From Desulfogranum japonicum DSM 18378 (lineage in GTDB: Bacteria; Desulfobacterota; Desulfobulbia; Desulfobulbales; Desulfobulbaceae), in contig NZ_AUCV01000033.1 in assembly GCF_000429945.1 (NCBI RefSeq), forward strand, positions 24,001 through 70,078: a DNA stretch of 46,078 nucleotides. Direction: 5' to 3'. Shown in pieces: positions 23,154 through 36,045 of the stretch (positions within the stretch are counted from its first letter, which is position 1; every line of letters starts with the position of its first letter). Made by a program: the position numbers and the translations under genes. The notes beneath the pieces are model-generated. The model saw nothing but the letters and a program-made list of their open reading frames with translations. It did no database searches and had not been told where the DNA came from.

Positions 23154-23260
23154 TATGCTGTAACCAGTAACCAGTAATCCGGATCACGGATTGTTTTTAT
23201 ATTGGTTGAAACTGCAGGGCTTGTTCTGTTTGTGGCATGTCCGCAGTTGGTGTTATGGTT

Positions 23261-23465: not shown

Positions 23466-25559
23466 ATGAAGGTCGTAAAGGTCATGGATACTGAAATAGC
23501 AGTTCTTTCAGTTGATGACTCCTTGCAACAGGCAGCAAAACTGCTGGAACAAACTGATCGGCAGGAAATTGTGGTGGTACACCCGGATTTTTCACCTGCA
23601 GGCCTGTTAAGTCACCGTGAGATACTTCGCGCCATTGGTCAGGGAATGACTGTGGATGGGGCTATCGGCCCAATGGTGAATACCCATTTTGGCGTGACAG
23701 ATCCTGATTCATCGTTATCTGCTTTGGATTCCGACGGTTATGGGCACTGGATAGTATATGCCCAGGGCAAACCTGTGGGCCTTGTCCGATATGCTGAGGT
23801 CGCCGAGAACGGTTTTCAAGATCCCAGGCATCTTTTTCGGCATCTCGGCAGGCTCATGGAAAGTGTTCAACTTCCTGTTCTGGTTCAGGATATTTCTTCC
23901 ACCATTGTGGTTGCCAACAGCACAGCCTGCCAGGTAATAGGCCTTGCTTCGGAATCCATTATCAGCCATCCCATAGGCTCCATTCTAACGTCACTTGGCT
24001 CTGAAGACAGACGCAGCGTTGGCACTATGGAGTTCATCCAAAGATTCCGTCTACATGGGGTCACCTATATGGCCACCTGGGCACCGGTCAATCTTCGGGG
24101 GAAAGAGGTAGGTGCATGTGCCATTTTGGGAGACTGTACCGAAAGCGAGGTCATGTTTGATGAACTTTCCCATGCCCGGGATGTTTCCAAAGAACTCAGC
24201 GCAATCATAGAATCTTCCTTTGATGGTATTTATGTTACCGATGGTCGCAGTCGTACATTACGGGTGAACAGAGCGTATGAACGGATCACCGGCATTAAGA
24301 GCAATGAGGTTGTGGGCAAGACCATGACTGATTTGGTTGAAGGAGGAATGTATAATGAATCTGCAACGTTACGTGTTCTCAGGGAAAAGCATCCGGTGAC
24401 CATTGTCCAGAACATTATGAAAACAGGCAAAACCATTGTTGCCACCGGTAATCCGGTATTTGACGAACAGGGCAACATTTTCCGGGTAGTCACCAATGTT
24501 CGGGATGTGACGGAATTGAATCGTTTGCAGGAGCAGATCGAAAAGATGGAGCAGCTCCAGTCCCGTTATGAAATGGAGTTGCAGCAACTGCGCAAAAACA
24601 GCAAAGATCATAAAAGATTCGTGCTGAAGTCGAAAAAGATGAAGGAGATCTACGCCTTGGCGCTCAAGCTGGCCAAGGTGGATTCCACCATTCTCATCCA
24701 GGGAGATTCAGGGGTGGGGAAAGAGGTGTTCTGCGAGATTATCCATAGCAATGGAGTACGGCAAAAGAAGCCATTTATAAAGATCAGCTGTGCTGCTATT
24801 CCTGAAAATCTGTTGGAATCCGAGTTGTTTGGGTATGCACCCGGTTCATTCACTGGAGCCAGTAAAGAGGGGCGGGCCGGAATTTTCGAGGTAGCGCACG
24901 GGGGCACCATCTTTCTTGATGAGATAGGTGAGATGCCCATGAGTTTGCAGGTGAAATTGCTGCGTGTATTGCAGGAAAGAGAAATCGTACGCATAGGCGG
25001 GTCTAAACCGATCAAGGTGGATACACGTATTGTAGCAGCCACAAATCGTGACCTGGAAGAAATGGTGAAGAATAAAGATTTTCGAAAAGATCTCTTTTTT
25101 CGCCTAAATGTTGTGCCTGTCATGATCCCGCCGCTTCGAGAGCGTAAGGAGGCAATCAGTCATTTTATTTTCTTCTTTCTTGAAAAGCACAATAAAAAAT
25201 ACGGATTCAGCAGGCAGATAACCCCGGAAGCCGTTGATGCCATGATAGAGTACGATTGGCCCGGCAATGTGCGTGAATTGGAAAACCTGATAGAACGTCT
25301 GGTGGTCATGTCTCAAGGCGAGATAATCACCGCCGATGATCTGCCCAGCAAGATCAGGTCAGTGCAGGTACTGCACAATGGCATCAGCCGAGAAGATAAA
25401 CCCCTTAAGGCTGCACTGGCAGAATTTGAATATCAGTTGCTGAGTGCTGCCCTGGAAAAATATGGCAGTTCCCGGAAAGCTGCCATGGTCCTTGGAATAA
25501 ACCAATCCACCGTTGTCCGTAAGGCTAATCGTCTGGGGATTCGGATTGGTACTGAGTGA
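23466..25559 (+). CDS. Sigma-54-dependent activator, CBS-PAS-PAS-AAA-Fis (paralogue 1)
   Basis: A 697-residue enhancer-binding protein. Residues 1-115 form a CBS-like pair (LSVDDSLQQAAKLLEQTDRQ), then two PAS domains (about 130-235 and 245-355), a coiled-coil linker (EQIEKMEQLQSRYEMELQQL), an AAA+ domain with Walker A GDSGVGKE, contact loop GSFTGA (usual GAFTGA, so Ala is replaced by Ser), Walker B IFLDEIGE, and a Fis HTH (AAMVLGINQSTVVRKANRLG). The frame is open from 23202, but ATG 23466 follows a GGGGGG site and matches the paralogue's N-terminus. It is followed by the GATGCATC palindromes and a permease gene. Confidence 0.92.
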   Translation: MKVVKVMDTEIAVLSVDDSLQQAAKLLEQTDRQEIVVVHPDFSPAGLLSHREILRAIGQGMTVDGAIGPMVNTHFGVTDPDSSLSALDSDGYGHWIVYAQGKPVGLVRYAEVAENGFQDPRHLFRHLGRLMESVQLPVLVQDISSTIVVANSTACQVIGLASESIISHPIGSILTSLGSEDRRSVGTMEFIQRFRLHGVTYMATWAPVNLRGKEVGACAILGDCTESEVMFDELSHARDVSKELSAIIESSFDGIYVTDGRSRTLRVNRAYERITGIKSNEVVGKTMTDLVEGGMYNESATLRVLREKHPVTIVQNIMKTGKTIVATGNPVFDEQGNIFRVVTNVRDVTELNRLQEQIEKMEQLQSRYEMELQQLRKNSKDHKRFVLKSKKMKEIYALALKLAKVDSTILIQGDSGVGKEVFCEIIHSNGVRQKKPFIKISCAAIPENLLESELFGYAPGSFTGASKEGRAGIFEVAHGGTIFLDEIGEMPMSLQVKLLRVLQEREIVRIGGSKPIKVDTRIVAATNRDLEEMVKNKDFRKDLFFRLNVVPVMIPPLRERKEAISHFIFFFLEKHNKKYGFSRQITPEAVDAMIEYDWPGNVRELENLIERLVVMSQGEIITADDLPSKIRSVQVLHNGISREDKPLKAALAEFEYQLLSAALEKYGSSRKAAMVLGINQSTVVRKANRLGIRIGTE

Positions 25560-25561
25560 TT

Positions 25562-25597
25562 GATGCATTTGTGCATATGTCGATGCATTTGTGCATC
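25562..25597. promoter_or_regulatory. Two tandem GATGCA-N4-TGCAT palindromes
   Basis: GATGCATTTGTGCAT occurs at 25562-25576 and again at 25582-25596, exactly 20 bp apart. Each is a palindrome with a TTTG centre, and the second is perfect (GATGCATTTGTGCATC). They begin 3 bp after the activator stop codon. The spacing of about two helical turns suggests binding of a dimeric protein to paired sites. Confidence 0.55.
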
Positions 25598-25660
25598 AAA
25601 CGATAAGGTTCCCTCTCGGCCACAGTTGTAAAAACTATTTCAGTTATATTTTCGATGAAC

Positions 25661-25702
25661 AACCCCTGCCATCGATGCATTAATGCATCGGATAGCAGGG
25701 GT
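25661..25702. terminator. Long imperfect hairpin with central GATGCATTAATGCATC
   Basis: AACCCCTGC (25661-25669) pairs with GCAGGGGTT (25694-25702). Between them is the perfect 18-bp palindrome CGATGCATTAATGCATCG (25673-25690). TGTGTTATTTTC follows, so the structure may end the activator transcript. The central palindrome is also the third copy of the GATGCA-N4-TGCATC motif found twice about 100 bp upstream. Confidence 0.55.
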
Positions 25703-26533
25703 TGTGTTATTTTCATATGCGTATTGTCCTTTCCGGTTCCAGGAAAGTGCTCTCTATCCTTTACTAAAAAATCGCATGCCCGCAACGGGTTCAATGGAGC
25801 ATCCCATGAATGGAGAAATTTATTTAAAGGTATAGTTTTCAGATGGTTAAGAGGTTGATCGCTTGTGGTTCTGGTAGTGTACCACTGTTGGTCCGGGATA
25901 CAGGCAGGTCTGTCTGCAACAGACCTTGTATAAAAATCGGCTGCAATTCCAATTAAAATGTGACCGGAGATTGCTAACGGCTCGTTTCTTGCTCATACAA
26001 GAGCATATACCACCGGTATTGACGAGTTTCTCTGGAACATTGCTGTGTTTGCATATGGGGAATGCGGATTCATTCCATGGGTGCGGATCCTGATGTCCTC
26101 ATTTCCGTCAATGTTCTCCCTGGGGGGTATTCAGGCAGTACATGGCCAATCAATGCTTGGCTGGGTGTCGTATCTTTCCATGACATTGTCATAAAGTAGA
26201 TTGTCTTTCGTATCTGTCTGTAAAAATGAGTAAACTTTAATATCGGATTCTCTGCGCAGGGATACTCCGCATTTCTCACAGGCATATTTTGCTGTGTCAC
26301 AGGTTTTCAGATATGAAGTCGTGTACTCCTGTTGGAGTGTACGCCTGGCTTACATGTCTGCATGTACTGCTGATGCCTTAAAATAGGTTTGTCCGAAAGG
26401 GTGGCTTTTTGATGTCGCGCATTCCTTGTTTGTAAAGGGAGCCAGCGTGCTTTTCAAAAAGTCATGGGTGGTGTGGAGTTGGGGGGCTTTTCTAGAAGGA
26501 AGAATATCCAAATAAGGAAAGGAGTGTTTGCAC
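25703..26533. other. Intergenic region upstream of permease
   Basis: About 830 bp without a supported gene. The short open frames here lack ribosome binding sites and recognisable protein character. It must contain the permease operon promoter. An exact sigma-54 -24/-12 element (GG and GC 12 bp apart) was not found. Small inverted repeats occur near 26334 (GTACTCC-TGTT-GGAGTGTAC). GGAG at 26521-26524 is the ribosome binding site of the permease. Confidence 0.4.
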
Positions 26534-27961
26534 ATGAGAAAAAAGAGAGAGTATGGGGCGAGACAACCAGGCATACCCATGGGGCCATTGACCCTGCGTA
26601 TACCCTTTATCCACTATCGGTTCGAGATAGCAGATTACCTGCAGGGGCTGTTGATGTGTACAGTCTGTCTCGCAATTATCCCGGTGTTAACGGGTAAGTT
26701 AGGGATGTCATTTGAGGTGGCTCTGGCTATCGTTATAATGAATGGCACGCTGTATCTGGCCCATGTCACATTTGGTGATCCGGTCATACCTGGCTGGGTA
26801 ACACCGGCTATCCCCCTGCTGATTGCCTATGTGGAGACATTTGCACCTGGGGTAGAACGCATGCAGGCGTTGATCGCATTTGAGCTGACCTTCGGGCTGT
26901 TTTGTGTTTTTTTGGGAATTACAGGGCTTGCAAAGCGTTTCGTGCGCCTGATACCCAATGCGGTGCAGTCTGCTATTTTAATGGGTGCAGGATTCTCAGC
27001 TGTCATACTTGTGTTTAAGCCTGGTGAGGGATTGAAGAGTTTTGATTCCAACCCCTGGACGATCACCATCTGCATAGGTATTGCCTTTTACCTTTTGTTT
27101 TCCGAACATTTTAAAAAATTGAGGCGTGAAAACAAATTTATGTACTACCTGGGGAATTTGGGCATGATGCCTGCTCTGGCGTTGGCAATTGTTGTGGGGC
27201 CGCTGCTGGGTGAACTGTCATGGCCCACCTATGACGGTAATATCATTACCCACCCTGATTTCCAGACCCTTTTTAAAGAATTTACTATTTTCGGTAACAT
27301 ACCCTTTCCTTCTCTGAAGATGTTCATCACTGGACTGCCCATGGTGATCAGTTCTTATGTGGTGGTGTTTGGAGATGTTATTCAGTCACAGGCATTACTT
27401 GATGATGCGCAGAAATATCGGCCTGATGAAGAAATCAATTACAATCCTAACAGGTCTCACATCATCTTTGGTGCCAGAAACAGTATCATGTCCATCATAG
27501 GCCCTGACATTTCCATGTGCGGTCCGTTGTGGGCAGCCATGCAGGTCGTTGTCTGTGAACGTTACAAACATGGCCCTAAAGCCATGGAATCAATCTATGG
27601 CGGTGCGGCATCATTTCGTTTCGGAACATGGACCGGTTATTTTCTCGCTCCAATAGTATCCACTGTTAAGCCAATCCTCGGTGTTGGTCTTGCTTCAACC
27701 ATGCTTATTCAGGGGTATGTGAGTGTCCGGGTGGGTGTCCTTAAATCACGTGGATTTAATGATTTGGGCATTGCAGGTGTTGCCGGGGCAATTCTTGCTA
27801 CCCGTGGAGCCGCCTGGGGATTGGGATCAGCAATTATCCTGACCGTTCTCATTTATCTGAGTAACTTCCGTAAAGCATATGAAAAGGAAGAACCGATTTT
27901 TCCCATGGATTCTCCTGACGCCATTGCCAAGGAAATTGCAGAAACAATGAAAGCAAAATAA
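26534..27961 (+). CDS. SLC23/NCS2-like permease
   Basis: A 475-residue membrane protein with about 12 helices, related to the xanthine/uracil/ascorbate (NCS2) permease superfamily. It has the long GAGFSAVILVF, SSYVVVFGDVIQSQALL and MSIIGPDISMCGPLWAAMQ segments in helices 8-10, but not the canonical QNxGxxxxT motif of purine permeases. Substrate is therefore uncertain. ATG 26534 is preferred over the TTG two codons earlier because GGAG lies 9 nt upstream. The next gene follows after 13 bp, and the ADH and hydrolase genes lie downstream, suggesting uptake of a substrate for that pathway. Confidence 0.75.
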   Translation: MRKKREYGARQPGIPMGPLTLRIPFIHYRFEIADYLQGLLMCTVCLAIIPVLTGKLGMSFEVALAIVIMNGTLYLAHVTFGDPVIPGWVTPAIPLLIAYVETFAPGVERMQALIAFELTFGLFCVFLGITGLAKRFVRLIPNAVQSAILMGAGFSAVILVFKPGEGLKSFDSNPWTITICIGIAFYLLFSEHFKKLRRENKFMYYLGNLGMMPALALAIVVGPLLGELSWPTYDGNIITHPDFQTLFKEFTIFGNIPFPSLKMFITGLPMVISSYVVVFGDVIQSQALLDDAQKYRPDEEINYNPNRSHIIFGARNSIMSIIGPDISMCGPLWAAMQVVVCERYKHGPKAMESIYGGAASFRFGTWTGYFLAPIVSTVKPILGVGLASTMLIQGYVSVRVGVLKSRGFNDLGIAGVAGAILATRGAAWGLGSAIILTVLIYLSNFRKAYEKEEPIFPMDSPDAIAKEIAETMKAK

Positions 27962-27974
27962 TACGACTGACTCC

Positions 27975-28685
27975 ATGGCCAATATACTCGGATTTACGAA
28001 AAATTCTCAAGATAGATTGTCGGCAGAACATGTGTTCCTGATTGGTATTGTCGCGGTTTCCCTGGCGGGCTTTATGCTGTTTTCCGATGATCGCTGGGCA
28101 GATCATCTCTTGTCTATGGTTGGGACAATCGCTGTCATTCTTCTTTTGATTGGGTTTGGACTGAGCAGGATGCATCCCATGCTGTGGAAACGAATTTTTC
28201 ACAAAGCCGAGTATGGGCGATATGTAAAAGGGCAAAGAGAAATCGTTGAAGCTCTGCAGAACCTGGGTGATGAGTACCAGGTGCTGTGCGGGTTCACCTT
28301 TGAACTGATCCATATAGAGTTTCTCGTTCTTTGCCCCGGCAATATTTTTGTACTAGGCCAGGCCAATACACAGGCTCCCCTGCGTGTGGAAGATGATCTG
28401 CTCATGGCTGGAAACCAGTCTCTACAGAAGCTGACCGCCAATCTGTGGAAAGCAAGTCACCTGGTCAATCTTGTTTTCAAAAAAGGCTATGGCAGGGATC
28501 TTATGCCCATGCCGATTCTGGTGATACCCCATGGCCAGGAGCAAGGAGTGGAAGAATTTGACGGTATAACCATCGTTCACCCTGAGCAACTTGGTGCACT
28601 TCTGGATCGGTCGCGCCAGCAGGATATCTCTGAAGAGATGGTGTTGGGCTTCAGTGAATATCTCTACAAAAGGTACATGGCATAA
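27975..28685 (+). CDS. Membrane protein with degenerate NERD-like domain
   Basis: A 236-residue protein with two membrane helices (about 19-37 and 45-63) and a cytoplasmic domain. The pattern EYQVLCGFTFELIHIEFLVLCPGNIFVLGQAN, then LQKLTANLWKASHLVN and MPMPILVIPHG, resembles the strand order of NERD (nuclease-related) domains, where an Asp and a Lys normally mark the catalytic site. Those positions read Glu and Gln here, so nuclease activity is doubtful. The similarity is judged by eye. It starts 13 bp after the permease stop and is probably co-transcribed with it. Confidence 0.6.
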   Translation: MANILGFTKNSQDRLSAEHVFLIGIVAVSLAGFMLFSDDRWADHLLSMVGTIAVILLLIGFGLSRMHPMLWKRIFHKAEYGRYVKGQREIVEALQNLGDEYQVLCGFTFELIHIEFLVLCPGNIFVLGQANTQAPLRVEDDLLMAGNQSLQKLTANLWKASHLVNLVFKKGYGRDLMPMPILVIPHGQEQGVEEFDGITIVHPEQLGALLDRSRQQDISEEMVLGFSEYLYKRYMA

Positions 28686-28921: not shown

Positions 28922-30079
28922 ATGTCGAATATAACTTTATTTCGGACCACTGAACGCATTGTGATGGGTGCCGGAGCGATCAACAATATTGTTGAAGAGA
29001 TTCAGCGCTTTGAAGGTAAGAAGCCAATTATTATCACGGACCCTGGCCTGGTTTCCACCGGGATCATAGACCGGCTGGAACAGATTCTGGATGACGGCGG
29101 CATTTCATTTGTCCGCTTTGATCGAGTAGAGGCCGATCCTCCTTACGAACTGGTCAACGAAGTCGTTGACCTGGTCACTGCCAACGGCGTGGACTGCGTA
29201 ATAGGCATTGGGGGTGGTTCTTCCCTTGATATTGCCAAGGTTGTTGCCGTCATGGTGACTAACCCTGGCTCGGTGGAGGATTATTTTGGCATTGATCTGC
29301 TGAAAAAAGCGGGCATTCCCCTGGTTTTGATTCCAACTACTGCAGGAACAGGCAGTGAAGTGACGCCCATTGTCATCCTTTCAGATCATCACGAAAAATT
29401 GAAAAAAGGCGTTGTCAGTTCTTTCCTGTTTCCAAATTGTGCCTTGCTTGATTCCGAGTTGACCCTCGGGCTGCCGCCTGCGGTAACTGCTGCAACCGGT
29501 ATGGATGCACTGATACATGCCATGGAAGCATATACCTCGATCAATGCCAATGCCACCACAGACATGCTGGCTGTGCAAGCCATGGATCTAATTTTCAATA
29601 ATATACGCACAGCCTATGCTAACGGTAGTGATATTACAGCCCGTGAGAAAATGCTGGAAGGCAGTATGCTGGCAGGGATGGCATTCGCCAACGCCGGGGT
29701 CACTGCCGTACATGCCTTTGCCTATCCCATTGGTGCGGAATTTCACATTCCCCATGGCATTGCCAATACGATAATGTTGACTCCGGTCATGGAGTTTAAC
29801 CTCATTGGCAACCTGGATAAATTTGCAGATATTGCCCGTATTTTTGGCGAAGATCATGCTGATATCAGTGTAAGGAAACAAGCAGGGCTTGGAGTTGCAG
29901 CCGTACGACAGTTGGCTGAAGACTTGAACGTTCCACAACATTTAAGCGCCTATGGAGTGCAAGAAAAACATATTCCAGACTTGGCTGGAGGTGTGATGAA
30001 AGTCACCAGGTTGCTGGCAAATAATCCGCGCCTGATGCGGATCGAGGACGCAGAAGCTATTTACAGAAAGGTGTTGTGA
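28922..30079 (+). CDS. Iron-containing alcohol dehydrogenase
   Basis: A 385-residue group III alcohol dehydrogenase with GIGGGSSLDIAK (95-106) for the nucleotide and all four metal ligands: D195 and H199 (MDALIHAME), H264 (AVHAFAYP) and H278 (HIPHGI). AAAGGAGAAATAT precedes the ATG. The lactonase-like hydrolase gene follows 21 bp later. ADH plus metallo-beta-lactamase hydrolase is the pairing seen in gamma-butyrolactone catabolism (BlcB/AttL with BlcC/AttM), where the ADH oxidises 4-hydroxybutyrate. That substrate is an inference here. The 236-bp gap before the gene presumably holds its promoter. Confidence 0.9.
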   Translation: MSNITLFRTTERIVMGAGAINNIVEEIQRFEGKKPIIITDPGLVSTGIIDRLEQILDDGGISFVRFDRVEADPPYELVNEVVDLVTANGVDCVIGIGGGSSLDIAKVVAVMVTNPGSVEDYFGIDLLKKAGIPLVLIPTTAGTGSEVTPIVILSDHHEKLKKGVVSSFLFPNCALLDSELTLGLPPAVTAATGMDALIHAMEAYTSINANATTDMLAVQAMDLIFNNIRTAYANGSDITAREKMLEGSMLAGMAFANAGVTAVHAFAYPIGAEFHIPHGIANTIMLTPVMEFNLIGNLDKFADIARIFGEDHADISVRKQAGLGVAAVRQLAEDLNVPQHLSAYGVQEKHIPDLAGGVMKVTRLLANNPRLMRIEDAEAIYRKVL

Positions 30080-30100: not shown

Positions 30101-30994
30101 ATGGGACTAAGCAGAAGGGATCTGTTTAAATTAGGTGGAGGAGCGGCTGCCGTTGTTGGGCTTTCACACTTTCCGATTTTCAGTGCCAGGGCGTCCCGTG
30201 GCCTGGAGGTAGAGGTTTATGCCTTTCATTGCGGTATCCTCAAAACCCAGACCCAGTACATCCTGAAAGACACGCGGGTAGGAGTACCGTTTGATATCCC
30301 TGTTCCGTTTTATCTTATTCGTCGAGGAGGGGACTGGGTGGCCTATGATATGGGCAATAACGCCCAGGTAGCTGTCGATCCCATAGGATACTGGAGTCAG
30401 TCAGTCTGCGAGGCATATATGCCGGTCATGAAACCGTATGAGGCCTTCAGGATTCAGATTAAAAAGCTCGGACTCAAGCCAGAGGATCTGCACGCCGTTA
30501 TTGTCAGCCATGGTCACCTTGATCATTGCGGGGCTTTGGAAGACTTTGTCGGAACCCAGGTGCCGATCTACATCCAGAAAAAGGAACTGGAGTGGGTTAA
30601 AGCTCAGGTGGAATCTGGTAAGAGAACTGCGTATATACCCGATGATTTTAAGCAACTCGGGGAAGTCAATATTCAGCAGGTCGATGGTGTACTTGATCTT
30701 TTTGGCGACCAAAGCGTCATGGCCATCCCAACCGTTGGCCACACTCCGGGGCATCAGTCACTGCTTGTTCGTGCCAGCAGCGGCAAGAATTATATTCTTG
30801 CCCAGGACGCCTGCTATACCCTGGAAAACATGTTTGCATGTATTCCTCCGGGATTAGCCCATGATATTCCCGATTCAATGACCAATATCTATCATTTCAA
30901 AGCTATGAGCGTCATTGGTGCTGAACTGGTACCTCCCCACGACCCTGATTGGTGGGCAGGTAAACCATTGGCTCCGCAGAAATTGATAGTATAG
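30101..30994 (+). CDS. Tat-exported MBL-fold hydrolase, lactonase-like
   Basis: A 297-residue metallo-beta-lactamase-fold protein. The N-terminus MGLSRRDLFKLGGGAAAVVG is a twin-arginine signal, so it is exported folded to the periplasm. The dinuclear metal site is complete: HGHLDH (H137, H139, D141, H142), H218 (TPGHQ), D236 (AQDACYT) and H280 (VPPHDPD). This is the arrangement of the AHL-lactonase/gamma-butyrolactonase branch. Most characterised members are cytoplasmic, so the Tat signal is notable. It could open a lactone outside the cytoplasm to give a hydroxyacid for the neighbouring ADH. Quorum-quenching or esterase activity are alternatives. Confidence 0.85.
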   Translation: MGLSRRDLFKLGGGAAAVVGLSHFPIFSARASRGLEVEVYAFHCGILKTQTQYILKDTRVGVPFDIPVPFYLIRRGGDWVAYDMGNNAQVAVDPIGYWSQSVCEAYMPVMKPYEAFRIQIKKLGLKPEDLHAVIVSHGHLDHCGALEDFVGTQVPIYIQKKELEWVKAQVESGKRTAYIPDDFKQLGEVNIQQVDGVLDLFGDQSVMAIPTVGHTPGHQSLLVRASSGKNYILAQDACYTLENMFACIPPGLAHDIPDSMTNIYHFKAMSVIGAELVPPHDPDWWAGKPLAPQKLIV

Positions 30995-31132: not shown

Positions 31133-33229
31133 ATGCAAGTCAGGGACTGTATGCAGCATGAAATCAACGTGCTATCCGGTGATGATACCTTACGGTATGC
31201 TGCCTCCACTTTCGCAGTACATTCAGATCAGCTCGCTCTGGTTCTGGATACTCAAGGATATCCGGTTAGAGTTGTTACCTCTGCACATATCATACAGGCC
31301 ATTGCTCTTGGACAACGTATGCACGAACCAGTTCATACATTACCCGGACCCCGGTGCGGGGTGGTCTCTCCAGAAGATATGGTGTCTGCAATTATGGATT
31401 CGCGATATGATTACTGGGCAGTGTGCGAAGCAAACAATATTATCGGTTTTCTCCAGCGCAGCCAGATCTGTCAGGATTCTGAATCTTCTGAAAAAGATTT
31501 TTTTCATCATATGGAGACAGCCCTGGAGTGTATTTCCAGACCAGCTCTCCTGGTGAACAAACAGAACCATATTGTTGCCTGTAACACCTCCCTGTGTCAA
31601 ACGATACGCAGGATGAAAACCGATATTGTTGGCCATGGCATCGCATCAGTGCTGGGCTTGTTTCAGTATCAGGGACAGAAAAATCGACCAGGGGACATTC
31701 TGGCAGAATTGGGTCAGAGATGTACCATTGACGGCACTGCATATGTGGCTGATTGGATACCTCTTCTTTTGGAAGATGACCCGAGGGGGGCATTTGTTCT
31801 TTTACAGAATGCAGAATATTCTTCCACTTTTTGTGAGCTTGAACAGGCACGCGATACATCGCGTGAACTTAACGCCATTATAGACTCGTCGTTTGACGGT
31901 ATCTATGTCACCGACGCAGACAGCCGCACTATCATGATTAATGATGCCTATGAACGTATCACAGGAATCAAGGGGCATGAGGTTGTGGGGAAGACCATGA
32001 TCGAGCTTGTTGAGCAAGGGGTTTTCAGTGAATCGGTTTCTTTGCGCGTATTGAAAGAGAAACGACCGATTACCATTGTGCAGAATATTACGCGAGCCAA
32101 TAAAACCATAGTAGTAACCGGTAATCCTATTTTCAACGAAAAGGGAGATTTGTTCCGGGTTGTGACCAATGTTCGTGATGTTACAGAACTGCATCAGTTA
32201 CAGAATAAAATAAAAAAGATGGAGCAACTGCAGTCAAGATATGAGGTTGAACTGAGACAATTTCGTGAAACAGGAGACGATCATACAAAATATGTGATTA
32301 AGTCAAAGAAAATGAAAGCCGTCTATGAACTCGGGCTGAAGCTTGCCAATGTTGACTCAACTATACTGATTCAGGGCGAATCCGGAGTGGGCAAAGAAGT
32401 CTTTGCGGAAATCGTCCATAATAACGGCAGGCGAAGAAAAAAACCTTTTATTAAGATCAGTTGTGCTGCAATACCTGACAATTTATTGGAGTCTGAGCTT
32501 TTTGGATATGACCCCGGTGCCTTTACGGGTGCAAACAGAGAAGGCAAGGTCGGTATTTTTGAGTTAGCCCATGGTGGAACTATTTTTCTCGATGAAATAG
32601 GTGAAATGCCCCTTGGATTGCAGGTTAAGCTGTTACGTGTCCTGCAACAGAAGGAAATTGTCCGTATCGGAGGAAATAAACCTATACAGGTGGATGCACG
32701 CATCATGGCTGCCACCAACCGTGAACTTGAGGAAATGGTTCGCAGCCACCGGTTCAGAAAAGACCTGTTTTTCAGGCTTAATGTAGTACCTGTGGTTATT
32801 CCGCCACTCAGGGAAAGAAAAGAGGCTCTCAGTCATTTTATCTATCTTTTTCTGCAAAAATGTAACAGTCGTTACGGCTTCAGCAAACAGATAGCTCCAG
32901 AAGTGGTCGATATCCTGGCATCGTATGATTGGCCGGGGAACGTAAGGGAACTGGAGAACATGATCGAGCGATTTGTGATAATGGCAAACGGTGAAGTGAT
33001 AACTGCAGATACCTTGCCTTTGCATTTGAAATCGTTTTCCAGCAAACCTCCAGCAGCATGTTTTGAGAAAAAGACATTGAAAATGGCCATGGACGAGTAT
33101 GAACGGAAACTTCTTCATGCTGCCATAACCAAATATGGTACCTCCAGAAAAGTTGCAGCAGCACTGGGCATTAATCAGTCTACCGTTGTGCGTAAGGCAG
33201 AGCGATACAGTCTTTCCATTGGAAAATAA
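31133..33229 (+). CDS. Sigma-54-dependent activator, CBS-PAS-PAS-AAA-Fis (paralogue 2)
   Basis: A 698-residue full-length paralogue of the activator at 23466, with the same domain order and near-identical blocks in the second PAS, the linker (KKMEQLQSRYEVELRQF) and the AAA+ domain: Walker A GESGVGKE, a consensus GAFTGA loop, Walker B IFLDEIGE and Fis HTH AAALGINQSTVVRKAERYS. The CBS and first PAS regions are more divergent, suggesting a different signal. The start is ATG 31133 (MQVRDCMQHEINVLSGDD); the frame also allows GTG 31124. No strong ribosome binding site is seen. It lies 138 bp downstream of the hydrolase gene. Confidence 0.92.
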   Translation: MQVRDCMQHEINVLSGDDTLRYAASTFAVHSDQLALVLDTQGYPVRVVTSAHIIQAIALGQRMHEPVHTLPGPRCGVVSPEDMVSAIMDSRYDYWAVCEANNIIGFLQRSQICQDSESSEKDFFHHMETALECISRPALLVNKQNHIVACNTSLCQTIRRMKTDIVGHGIASVLGLFQYQGQKNRPGDILAELGQRCTIDGTAYVADWIPLLLEDDPRGAFVLLQNAEYSSTFCELEQARDTSRELNAIIDSSFDGIYVTDADSRTIMINDAYERITGIKGHEVVGKTMIELVEQGVFSESVSLRVLKEKRPITIVQNITRANKTIVVTGNPIFNEKGDLFRVVTNVRDVTELHQLQNKIKKMEQLQSRYEVELRQFRETGDDHTKYVIKSKKMKAVYELGLKLANVDSTILIQGESGVGKEVFAEIVHNNGRRRKKPFIKISCAAIPDNLLESELFGYDPGAFTGANREGKVGIFELAHGGTIFLDEIGEMPLGLQVKLLRVLQQKEIVRIGGNKPIQVDARIMAATNRELEEMVRSHRFRKDLFFRLNVVPVVIPPLRERKEALSHFIYLFLQKCNSRYGFSKQIAPEVVDILASYDWPGNVRELENMIERFVIMANGEVITADTLPLHLKSFSSKPPAACFEKKTLKMAMDEYERKLLHAAITKYGTSRKVAAALGINQSTVVRKAERYSLSIGK

Positions 33230-33459: not shown

Positions 33460-33539
33460 GAAGTATGTTGAAAAGCCGCTGGCTCAGGGCCTCGGAAAAG
33501 AATAAATGATCCAATCGTGTTGGTTTCTCAACTCATTTT

Positions 33540-33580
33540 TCCTGCGCAATTTTTGTGTAGTGAGTATTTTCCGCGCCCCT
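33540..33580 (+). repeat. Degenerate family A half element (A5)
   Basis: CCTGCGCAATTTTTGTG, then GAGTATTTTCCGCGCCCCT, aligns with the same end as A4 but with more differences. It falls within the upstream open extension of the Lon-like gene, one reason to place that gene's start further right. The gap 33230-33624 otherwise holds only repeat B5. Confidence 0.5.
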
Positions 33581-33624
33581 TGGATCTCGATGTTAAACAA
33601 TTTTATTACGCTGTTTTGCCGCCT

Positions 33625-36045
33625 ATGCCCATCTCGAAGCTTACCGTTGCTGAACTTCGCCTCACCCTCGATCCCGACACACTGGGATTTGCCGATACTT
33701 CAGAATTGCTGGATCATACACTACCCTGGATTGGACAGGAACGTGCGGAAATCGCTGCGCGTTTCGGGCTCGAAATGGATCAATCGGATTACAATCTGTT
33801 CGTCTTGGGTGAGGTCGGCAGCGGCCGCTCTTCGCTGCTGAAACAGGCTATGCAGAAAGTCGCCTTGAAACGGCCAACGCCGCCGGACTTGTGTTATCTG
33901 CATAACTTTGACACGCCAAAGCATCCTTGCGCAGTCAGGCTTCCTGCTGGCCAAGGTCGCTTGCTCTGTCAATACATGGCGCGCATGATCAAAGATCTGT
34001 TGACGGAAATCCCCCTCCAGCTCGACGGGCCGGATTTTAAGGTGGAAAGTGAGCGGATAGAAAAATCCTACACAGAAGAAGAATCCAAGGCCTTTGCTGA
34101 ACTTGAAGCTTTTGGTGAGGCGCGCCATTTCAGGATGCACCGGGAAGCCAACCAGATCCTGTTTACTCTGCATGGCAAGAAAGGGCAAGCCATGACCGAG
34201 AATGAAATGCTTGCCTTGCCCAAAGAACAACGTGCCGCCATTGCACAGGCGGAACAGGAACTGCTCGCTGAAATCAATCGGTATTTCGAAAAAAGCCGTC
34301 CTATGGAAAGGGCGAAAAACGAGGCTCTTGCGGCCTTAAGTCGGCAAGTGGTCAAGCCGCTGCTGGAACGTGAACTGCAAAAAATTCGCACACCTCTGGG
34401 AATCAAGGATTCCAGCAAACTCGGCGTCTATCTCGACCAGGTTATGGAAGATCTGCTCGACAATCTGGAAGTATTCAAAGCATGCGAAACCGACGATGAG
34501 TTACACAAAGAGACATTGAACAATGTATTATCCCACTATCAGGTTAATCTGGTGGTAGACAATCATGGGTTGGATGGCGCACCGGTGATCGTGGAAGACA
34601 ATCCTTTGTTCCGCTCACTGTTCGGCAGTATTGAGTACCAGACCGAAAGCGATGTGCTGGTAACGGGTTTTTCCCGCATCCATGCAGGCAGCCTGCATAA
34701 GGCCCATGGAGGCTTTCTGATGCTGCATCTGAGTGATCTGCTGACCGATCCTCTGGTGTGGGAAAAATTACGGCGTTTTTTTCGCAGCGGACGCCTTCAG
34801 ATCGAAGAGCCGGACACGGCATTTGCTCCGATTGCAGCGGTTTCGCTTGTACCCGAAGCTGTTGATGCCACCGTAAAGATTGTCCTCATAGGCTCGCGGG
34901 AGCTATACTACGAGTTGCAGGAGGCTGATCCTGAATTTGCACGACGCTTTCGGGTGAAGGTGGACTTTGCCGATCGATTTTCCGCCAACAGTGATACGCA
35001 TCGAGCTTCAGCCATCTTTGTTGCTCATACCTGTCAGAAATTTGGATTGCCCCATTTTTCCGCAGCCGCAGTCGCACGCCTGTTGGAACAGGGACATCGC
35101 GAAGTGGAAGACCGTTCACGCCAAAGTGCCATCTTTGGGCACGCGAAAGCTCTGATAATAGAAAGTGCTGTCCTGTGCCAGCAACAAGATGGTGGTCTGG
35201 TCAAGGCGGCTGATGTCGATGCAGCTCTTGCCGCACGTAAGCTGCGTCATGACTATCCTGAGCAGCGGATGCAGGAAGCCATCGCCGAAGGCCAGGTGAT
35301 GATTTCCCTGTATGGCGAGGAGGTTGGCCGGGTGAACGCCCTGACAGTAGTGGACCTGGGAGATCATTGCTTCGGTTTTCCCATGCGGGTCACTGCACGT
35401 ACCTACGCCGGTGAGGATGGCCTGATCAATATTGAGCGTGAGGTGGAGATGTCCGGTCCTGTTCACGACAAGGGCGTGCTTATTCTCCATAATTATCTCT
35501 CTGCACTGTTTGCCAGCAATGCCCCTCTAGCCCTCAGTGCCTCGCTTGTTTTTGAGCAGGAATATAGCGGTATCGAAGGCGACTCTGCTTCCTGTGCAGA
35601 ATTGTATGCTTTGCTCTCATCGCTGGCCGGGTTGCCCCTTAAGCAGGGCATAGCAGTGACCGGTGCACTCAATCAGCACGGTGATGTGCTCCCAGTAGGT
35701 GGTATCAATGAAAAGATCGAAGGCTATTTCAAGATTTGTTCTGCTGCAGGACTTGATGGCAGCCAGGGGGTATTGATACCGTACCGTAATCGTCGCCATT
35801 TGATGCTCAATCACGAGGTGATCGAAGCCGTTGCCCAGGGATTGTTTACCATCTATACCGCAGAGCATGTCTCCGAAGGTATGGAGCTACTTACCGGAGT
35901 GCCTGCGGGCAGTTCAGATAACAGTGGCGTTTTCTCCAGCGGCAGCGTTTTGAGCCATGCCCAGGAAACCCTGCAGGCTTACCGTCAAGCTTGTCAGGCC
36001 TCGCAGGACGGCAGGAAGGTGAAACATGTGGGTTCTCCGCAATGA
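33625..36045 (+). CDS. Lon-like ATP-dependent protease (AAA_32, S16 peptidase)
   Basis: An 806-residue protein with an N-terminal ATPase region. Its P-loop is GEVGSGRS (62-69, Arg in the usual Lys position). A long charged helical insert (about 140-300), AAA lid elements and a C-terminal Lon protease domain follow. The catalytic dyad is S654 (GDSAS) and K697 (GGINEKIEGYF). Such LonB-like proteins degrade cytoplasmic or membrane-associated substrates. The frame extends to 33517, but the extra 36 residues overlap a repeat and are not family-like, so ATG 33625 is used; no strong ribosome binding site supports either start. Base composition is slightly more GC-rich than its neighbours. Confidence 0.85.
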   Translation: MPISKLTVAELRLTLDPDTLGFADTSELLDHTLPWIGQERAEIAARFGLEMDQSDYNLFVLGEVGSGRSSLLKQAMQKVALKRPTPPDLCYLHNFDTPKHPCAVRLPAGQGRLLCQYMARMIKDLLTEIPLQLDGPDFKVESERIEKSYTEEESKAFAELEAFGEARHFRMHREANQILFTLHGKKGQAMTENEMLALPKEQRAAIAQAEQELLAEINRYFEKSRPMERAKNEALAALSRQVVKPLLERELQKIRTPLGIKDSSKLGVYLDQVMEDLLDNLEVFKACETDDELHKETLNNVLSHYQVNLVVDNHGLDGAPVIVEDNPLFRSLFGSIEYQTESDVLVTGFSRIHAGSLHKAHGGFLMLHLSDLLTDPLVWEKLRRFFRSGRLQIEEPDTAFAPIAAVSLVPEAVDATVKIVLIGSRELYYELQEADPEFARRFRVKVDFADRFSANSDTHRASAIFVAHTCQKFGLPHFSAAAVARLLEQGHREVEDRSRQSAIFGHAKALIIESAVLCQQQDGGLVKAADVDAALAARKLRHDYPEQRMQEAIAEGQVMISLYGEEVGRVNALTVVDLGDHCFGFPMRVTARTYAGEDGLINIEREVEMSGPVHDKGVLILHNYLSALFASNAPLALSASLVFEQEYSGIEGDSASCAELYALLSSLAGLPLKQGIAVTGALNQHGDVLPVGGINEKIEGYFKICSAAGLDGSQGVLIPYRNRRHLMLNHEVIEAVAQGLFTIYTAEHVSEGMELLTGVPAGSSDNSGVFSSGSVLSHAQETLQAYRQACQASQDGRKVKHVGSPQ

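Follow-up and report, generated by a model that had tools for sequence, protein, structure and literature searches.

The 46,078-nt stretch of Desulfogranum japonicum DSM 18378 DNA analysed here (the window; NZ_AUCV01000033.1, 24,001-70,078, forward strand) carries three copies of a short palindrome between the gene of a sigma-54 activator, EBP1, and that of a permease-like protein (Table 1). What is the role of these palindromes? The original prediction took them for enhancer or operator sites. Their reading as enhancer sites for the adjacent Fis-type activator is strongly supported: the sites are conserved, the doublet is specific across the genome, a sigma-54-like promoter is kept downstream, and half-site and recognition helix covary. 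The palindromes are real and, judging from the sequence, have a high probability of being functional. Very probably, they constitute a sigma-54 enhancer from which EBP1 switches on the permease and iron-containing alcohol dehydrogenase (Fe-ADH) genes.

Table 1. Features of the locus and of the two further site clusters on contig C54 (window positions unless C54 is given)
Feature	Position	Strand	Remarks
EBP1, CBS-PAS-AAA+-HTH_50 sigma-54 activator	23466..25559	+	helix INQSTVVRKA, GSFTGA loop
Enhancer site 1 (predicted)	25562..25577		GATGCATTTGTGCATA, 15/16, counterpart in orthologues
Enhancer site 2 (predicted)	25582..25597		GATGCATTTGTGCATC, exact, TTTG centre
Long hairpin enclosing site 3	25659..25705	+	47 nt, -32 kcal/mol, z -5.4
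Enhancer site 3 (predicted)	25674..25689		GATGCATTAATGCATC, exact, TTAA centre
Sigma-54-like -24/-12 promoter	25978..25993	+	CGGCTCGTTTCTTGCT, 10/12 consensus match, position kept in five loci
Permease-like protein	26534..27961	+	presumed operon's first gene, weak BenE match below cut-off
236-aa protein	27975..28685	+	no Pfam/NCBIfam family, relative after permease in several related loci
Fe-ADH	28922..30079	+	third gene downstream of the sites
Metallo-beta-lactamase (MBL)-fold protein	30101..30994	+	nearest AttM/BlcC-type lactonases, below cut-off
EBP2, EBP1 paralogue (55% identity)	31133..33229	+	second CBS-PAS sigma-54 activator, same NQSTVVRKA helix
Cluster M	C54: 8075, 8094, 8182		upstream of molybdopterin (molybdenum) aldehyde oxidoreductase, spacing 19/88
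Cluster O	C54: 24784, 24763, 24682, read toward gene		upstream of oadA/oadB-like (oxaloacetate-decarboxylase-like) genes, spacing 21/81

Palindromic sites in the window and the genome

The predicted GATGCA-N4-TGCATC palindromes are confirmed at 25562, 25582 and 25674, after the activator stop codon (25557-25559; site 1 begins 2 nt later) and before the permease gene. Their start-to-start distances, 20 bp and 92 bp, agree with the 20 bp and about 90 bp anticipated, but site 1 is not an exact copy, its final base being A instead of C. Likewise, the proposed phasing holds for sites 1 and 2, which are about two helical turns apart, and fails for site 3, whose offset is not a whole number of turns.

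When at most one mismatch is allowed, sites 1-3 are the sole matches in the window, so that none is located directly before the ADH gene or either activator gene, where the original prediction had proposed to look. The ADH lies downstream of the permease on the same strand, and the link between the sites and the ADH is one of gene order only. Up to three mismatches, the window holds 38 matches against 28.4 expected, a count that 3 of 100 shuffles reach. Since this is barely above chance, it is the strict copies, and the way they cluster, that carry the signal.

The genome-wide search that had been proposed for the motif (5.8 Mb) yields 36 places with at most one mismatch versus 2 for a reversed control, and the exact motif occurs at five places, two in the window and three on contig C54. 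A degenerate doublet, GATGN8CATN5-7ATGN8CATC, is found at exactly three places, i.e. the window and clusters M and O, each with a third site toward the gene, whereas the control gives 0. Read toward the target, all three share one layout: a close pair 19-21 bp apart, then the third site 81-92 bp on. A chance origin of the sites was rejected by the comparison with the controls for both the motif and the doublet. At cluster M a standard sigma-54 element was not found, the best candidate, CGGCACGATTATTGAT, being without the GC, and the candidate at cluster O, TGGTCTATTTTTTGCT, is an 8/12 match near background, 265 bp past the third site. An earlier pattern search matched 28 of 57 relatives, with 7 places in the D. 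japonicum genome and 0-4 in the others; no regulon emerged from that search alone.

Conservation of the sites with the activator

Orthologues of EBP1 (E <= 1e-180, four candidates scored per genome) were found in 4 of 257 genomes of the class, D. japonicum included. The other three share 62% (G091), 63% (G092) and 57% (G141) identity with EBP1. All four genomes have the doublet at the EBP1 or orthologue locus and one rpoN gene over the cut-off. In G091, G092 and G141 the doublet occurs once per genome, directly behind the EBP1 orthologue; the third site follows after 92-95 bp, and then comes the permease gene. The inner bases differ in G141, and thus the conserved core is GATGC-N6-GCATC.

A looser doublet is found in 19 genomes of the class, including the four with EBP1. 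Among the other 15, two (G006 and G167) have it beside other activators, 37-38% identical to EBP1, while in 13 no EBP1-like gene was found near it within the locus of 1.6-3 kb taken for each. The doublets beside these two activators (L066 in G006 and L072 in G167, one of them in the window's own genus) are of ATGC type. The same layout may be used in modified form by related activators.

To cover the wider family, named genomes were scanned with a five-EBP alignment, and the best 79 homologue loci of 151 confirmed stretches were used; a contig scan with EBP1 alone as query confirmed no relative. A strict GATGC triad is located 5-39 nt past the end of the EBP match in 11 of the 79 named loci, the carriers including Desulfobulbus rhabdoformis, three Desulfoluna genomes, Solidesulfovibrio alcoholivorans and Thermosyntropha lipolytica of the Bacillota. 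Even distantly related anaerobes share the three-copy layout next to their activators of this family.

Elsewhere, 5 such triads occur in 2.15 million strand-bases, as compared with 0 in an equal base-shuffled amount. Three of these are second triads just upstream of the 4-hydroxybutyryl-CoA dehydratase gene (L082:13799, L083:13837 and L088:13355; spacing 18/69-70), and the remaining two are a single array of four sites (L081), counted once on each strand. This array, at L081:7486-7613 in a Thermoanaerobacterales MAG, consists of two doublets in mirror orientation; on one side lies the activator and on the other the divergent 4-hydroxybutyryl-CoA dehydratase genes, and a 12/12 sigma-54 element faces the dehydratase.

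Sigma-54-like promoters

The background for a 10/12 match, such as that of the element downstream of site 3, is 0.016 per 300 bp. An exact GG-N10-GC element lies 281-295 bp past site 3 in the window, G091, G092, G141 and D. rhabdoformis, scoring 8 to 10 of 12 in these five loci. We regard it as a putative -24/-12 promoter served by the sites.

For the counts across the family, 84 proteins were considered (the 79 named ones, those of G091, G092 and G141, EBP1 and EBP2), with an array taken to require four or more scored half-sites of the same type between the stop codon and 330 bp beyond it. Arrays are present at 34 of the 84 loci; the 50 with fewer than four half-sites were left out of the promoter and covariation counts. 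In 28 of the 34 array loci the last site is followed, at no more than 500 bp, by an element of at least 9/12; random placement would give 4.6. The misses are G091 (8/12), L093, L123, L124, L087 and L097, of which the last two are on contigs that end early (148 and 123 bases past the last site) and were counted as misses all the same. No 8/12 element was found within 500 bp of the second triads in L082, L083 and L088.

Compared with G091, G092 and G141, the window has about 300 bp more leader (about 26070-26430) between the sigma-54-like promoter and the permease start. A repeat origin of the extra DNA was rejected, as 26050-26500 matches only its own place in the genome.

Presumed target genes and pathway

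The permease family travels with two alternative gene sets. The first is composed of Fe-ADH and aldehyde dehydrogenase (ALDH) in G091, G092 and D. rhabdoformis; in G141 it contains an aldehyde:ferredoxin oxidoreductase, and in S. alcoholivorans a lactonase, below its cut-off, and a succinate-semialdehyde dehydrogenase, above the NCBIfam SSADH cut-off. The second consists of 4-hydroxybutyrate CoA-transferase and 4-hydroxybutyryl-CoA dehydratase, the best solved relatives of these proteins in L085 being 3eh7 and 1u8v. Both sets would make sense for 4-hydroxybutyrate, and the neighbouring genes suggest a 4-hydroxybutyrate/lactone pathway. At 1e-25 the window has no homologues of the ALDH, SSADH, AOR and Mop references; the aldehyde oxidoreductase marked by cluster M, elsewhere in the genome, could close this gap.

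It is quite possible that the enhancer is correctly identified but serves general alcohol or diol oxidation instead. Such a role would fit two results: among solved structures, enzymes for methanol, 1,3-propanediol and lactaldehyde come closest to the Fe-ADH, and neither the ADH nor the MBL-fold protein of the window reaches an NCBIfam cut-off. However, the EBP and permease families accompany 4-hydroxybutyrate CoA-transferase and 4-hydroxybutyryl-CoA dehydratase elsewhere, and also occur with Fe-ADH, lactonase and succinate-semialdehyde dehydrogenase, which argues for the 4-hydroxybutyrate/lactone pathway.

EBP1 and its paralogue

The start of EBP1 was picked by homology, the longest ORF beginning at 23202. 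Pfam matches to Sigma54_activat (1.9e-68) and HTH_50 (7.7e-12) identify an activator encoded next to the sites. Its sigma-54 contact loop is GSFTGA (residues 460-465), compared with GAFTGA in the other four aligned EBPs; the accessible text of PMC4641369 names GSFTGA as one of the variants that are said to stay active. Against the PrdR model (NCBIfam NF041552) EBP1 scores 472 bits, below the curated cut-off of 795.

EBP2, encoded after the ADH and MBL-fold genes, may bind sites 1-3 too. The sites could even be mainly those of EBP2 or shared by both paralogues, in which case EBP1 would not be the sole regulator; the identity of the two proteins, the retained helix and the lack of an array in the 330 bp after the EBP2 stop codon are consistent with this. 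We consider it rather unlikely, given that G091, G092 and G141 show one such EBP each (E <= 1e-180) among the four candidates scored per genome, located beside the sites. Downstream of EBP2, a Lon-like ATP-dependent protease is encoded at 33517-36045, with a LonB-type match below the cut-off.

The hairpin around site 3

The third copy had been placed inside a 42-bp hairpin that doubles as a terminator-like structure. The hairpin is present but measures 47 nt, and the terminator part was not supported: the T-run of an intrinsic terminator is absent, the scan calls no terminator, and the outer stem is not conserved. Of nine third-site regions folded, only that of the window has it, whereas six homologue loci and clusters M and O lack it; the third-site region of L124 folds at -25.4 kcal/mol with an interrupted stem. 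Despite the folding energy and z-score of the structure that encloses site 3 (Table 1), it is very improbable on these grounds that the sites following EBP1 are a transcription terminator or a palindromic repeat of mobile type, and the restriction of the doublet to three places in the genome speaks against this as well. The hairpin may be an add-on of the D. japonicum genome, and it might have a further role in slowing read-through.

Proposed mechanism and known systems

We propose that EBP1 dimers would bind the three GATGC-N6-GCATC dyads via the INQSTVVRKA helix, with EBP2 perhaps competing or helping. The dyad pair and the third dyad 92 bp on might act as the scaffold on which three dimers build the active AAA+ hexamer. 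A DNA loop of about 290 bp would bring this hexamer to the sigma-54 RNA polymerase at 25978-25993, where ATP hydrolysis would open the promoter of the genes for the permease, the 236-aa protein, Fe-ADH and the lactonase-like protein. Through clusters M and O the regulon would also take in the aldehyde oxidoreductase and the oxaloacetate-decarboxylase-like genes. A hydroxy-acid, e.g. 4-hydroxybutyrate or its semialdehyde, is the probable signal. An anaerobic hydroxy-acid/alcohol pathway would thus have, in more than one phylum, a predicted regulator together with its site, promoter and targets. The specific cis-element could also serve to trace more regulon members, such as the aldehyde oxidoreductase on another contig.

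Three-site sigma-54 enhancers are already known from AdhR and NorR; the comparisons here refer to the accessible text of the papers cited. In Clostridium beijerinckii, AdhR has three sites upstream of the sigma-54 promoters of adhA1 and adhA2, and disruption of any one of them severely impairs promoter activity (PMC7017808). The window likewise has three sites before a putative promoter that would serve an ADH, here as the third gene, but unlike in the AdhR system the first target gene is a permease. Three sites are also shared with NorR at norVW of Escherichia coli, where they scaffold a higher-order activator assembly (PMC2941729). NorR has a GAF domain and senses nitric oxide, whereas the Pfam scan of EBP1 finds CBS and PAS and no GAF domain, and the motif is another one.

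GabR of Bacillus thuringiensis is, like EBP1, a one-component PAS sigma-54 activator, and responds to GABA or succinic semialdehyde, a metabolic branch neighbouring the one suggested for EBP1; however, it protects 96 bp with a 21-bp inverted repeat, and its abstract names PAS and no CBS (PMC4279683). The Agrobacterium blcABC (attKLM) operon, which serves to degrade gamma-butyrolactone by way of gamma-hydroxybutyrate and succinic semialdehyde with a BlcC-type lactonase, may be compared with the Solidesulfovibrio locus L124, although it is under the repressor BlcR and not a sigma-54 activator (PMC5924552).

One-component activators beside sigma-54 targets are also described for the sulfate reducer Desulfovibrio vulgaris, where the GSFTGA variant occurs; Table 1 of that paper is without a 4-hydroxybutyrate set, and 'CBS' is absent from its accessible text, motif logos in figures aside (PMC4641369). 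In the literature searched, the GATGC motif and its regulon were not found: the accessible text, including PMC4324140 and PMC11887813, does not describe them, figures, supplements and regulon databases aside. The D. vulgaris gene DVU2405 presumably encodes an iron ADH. The nearest D. vulgaris entry pairs the two-component regulator DVU2394 with DVU2405-DVU2399, under energy metabolism (PMC4641369).

Recognition helix and half-site

Across the array loci, the half-site varies with the recognition helix. Proteins with the helix [ND]QST are followed by 104 GATGC-type and 2 GTTGC-type half-sites (18 loci), those with [ND]AST by 86 GTTGC-type and 6 GATGC-type half-sites (16 loci). Both G[A/T]TGC halves were allowed in site picking; because sites were picked at 9/10 or better, the near-invariance of the pooled core is partly due to selection, while the A/T choice is unaffected. 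None of 25 proteins with other helices has at least four half-sites (the helix of L156 is unread), and in the 330 bp after the stop codon arrays are absent for 15 [ND]QST proteins, EBP2 included, and 10 [ND]AST proteins.

In a tree of 83 proteins (L156 left out as too short), the switch of helix and half-site is one event among the array loci. The [ND]QST pair L090/L097 adjoins the [ND]AST clade, and the sites of L097 are mixed; another clade, with 7 rows and no arrays, has the [ND]AST helix as well. The root is a midpoint only and does not fix the direction of the code change. As the switch is single, the covariation points to direct binding as strong circumstantial evidence and not as many independent repeats. 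Although palindromes between genes suit many types of regulator, operators for an unrelated repressor or activator of the permease operon are hardly credible here, since the half-site varies with the EBP recognition helix and the arrays track the EBP gene in Desulfobacterota and Bacillota though the next gene varies.

The motif of the AdhR group of Clostridiales, TGT/ACA with a 10-12-bp spacer (PMC6615313), was rejected for the window sites. Beside [ND]QST activators, the window included, none of 53 sites matches TGT-N10-12-ACA, versus 14 of 49 beside [ND]AST activators, all of them N12. The window motif thus departs from the AdhR class, and the Syntrophomonas motif falls partly inside it.

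On balance we favour a joint reading, in which sigma-54 activators of CBS-PAS type would form a family widespread among anaerobes, with no description in the literature searched, and would keep their own three-dyad enhancer directly behind the gene in two codes, separated by one joint switch. In Desulfobacterota and part of the Bacillota, GATGC would accompany 4-hydroxybutyrate/lactone genes; in the Syntrophomonas lineage, GTTGC would accompany thiolase/fatty-acid genes. The codes would differ by a joint change of half-site (A/T) and helix (Gln/Ala), the array layout being kept. The arrays would thereby form a natural series in which a single residue of the HTH_50 helix is a candidate for switching specificity.

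Relatives in Syntrophomonas often have GTTGC-N6-GCAAC arrays at the same place behind the EBP gene. Such arrays at the Syntrophomonas-type loci L101, L102, L106 and L107 are accompanied by strong sigma-54-like elements, with a thiolase as the next large ORF, which suggests a parallel sigma-54 regulon for fatty-acid degradation.
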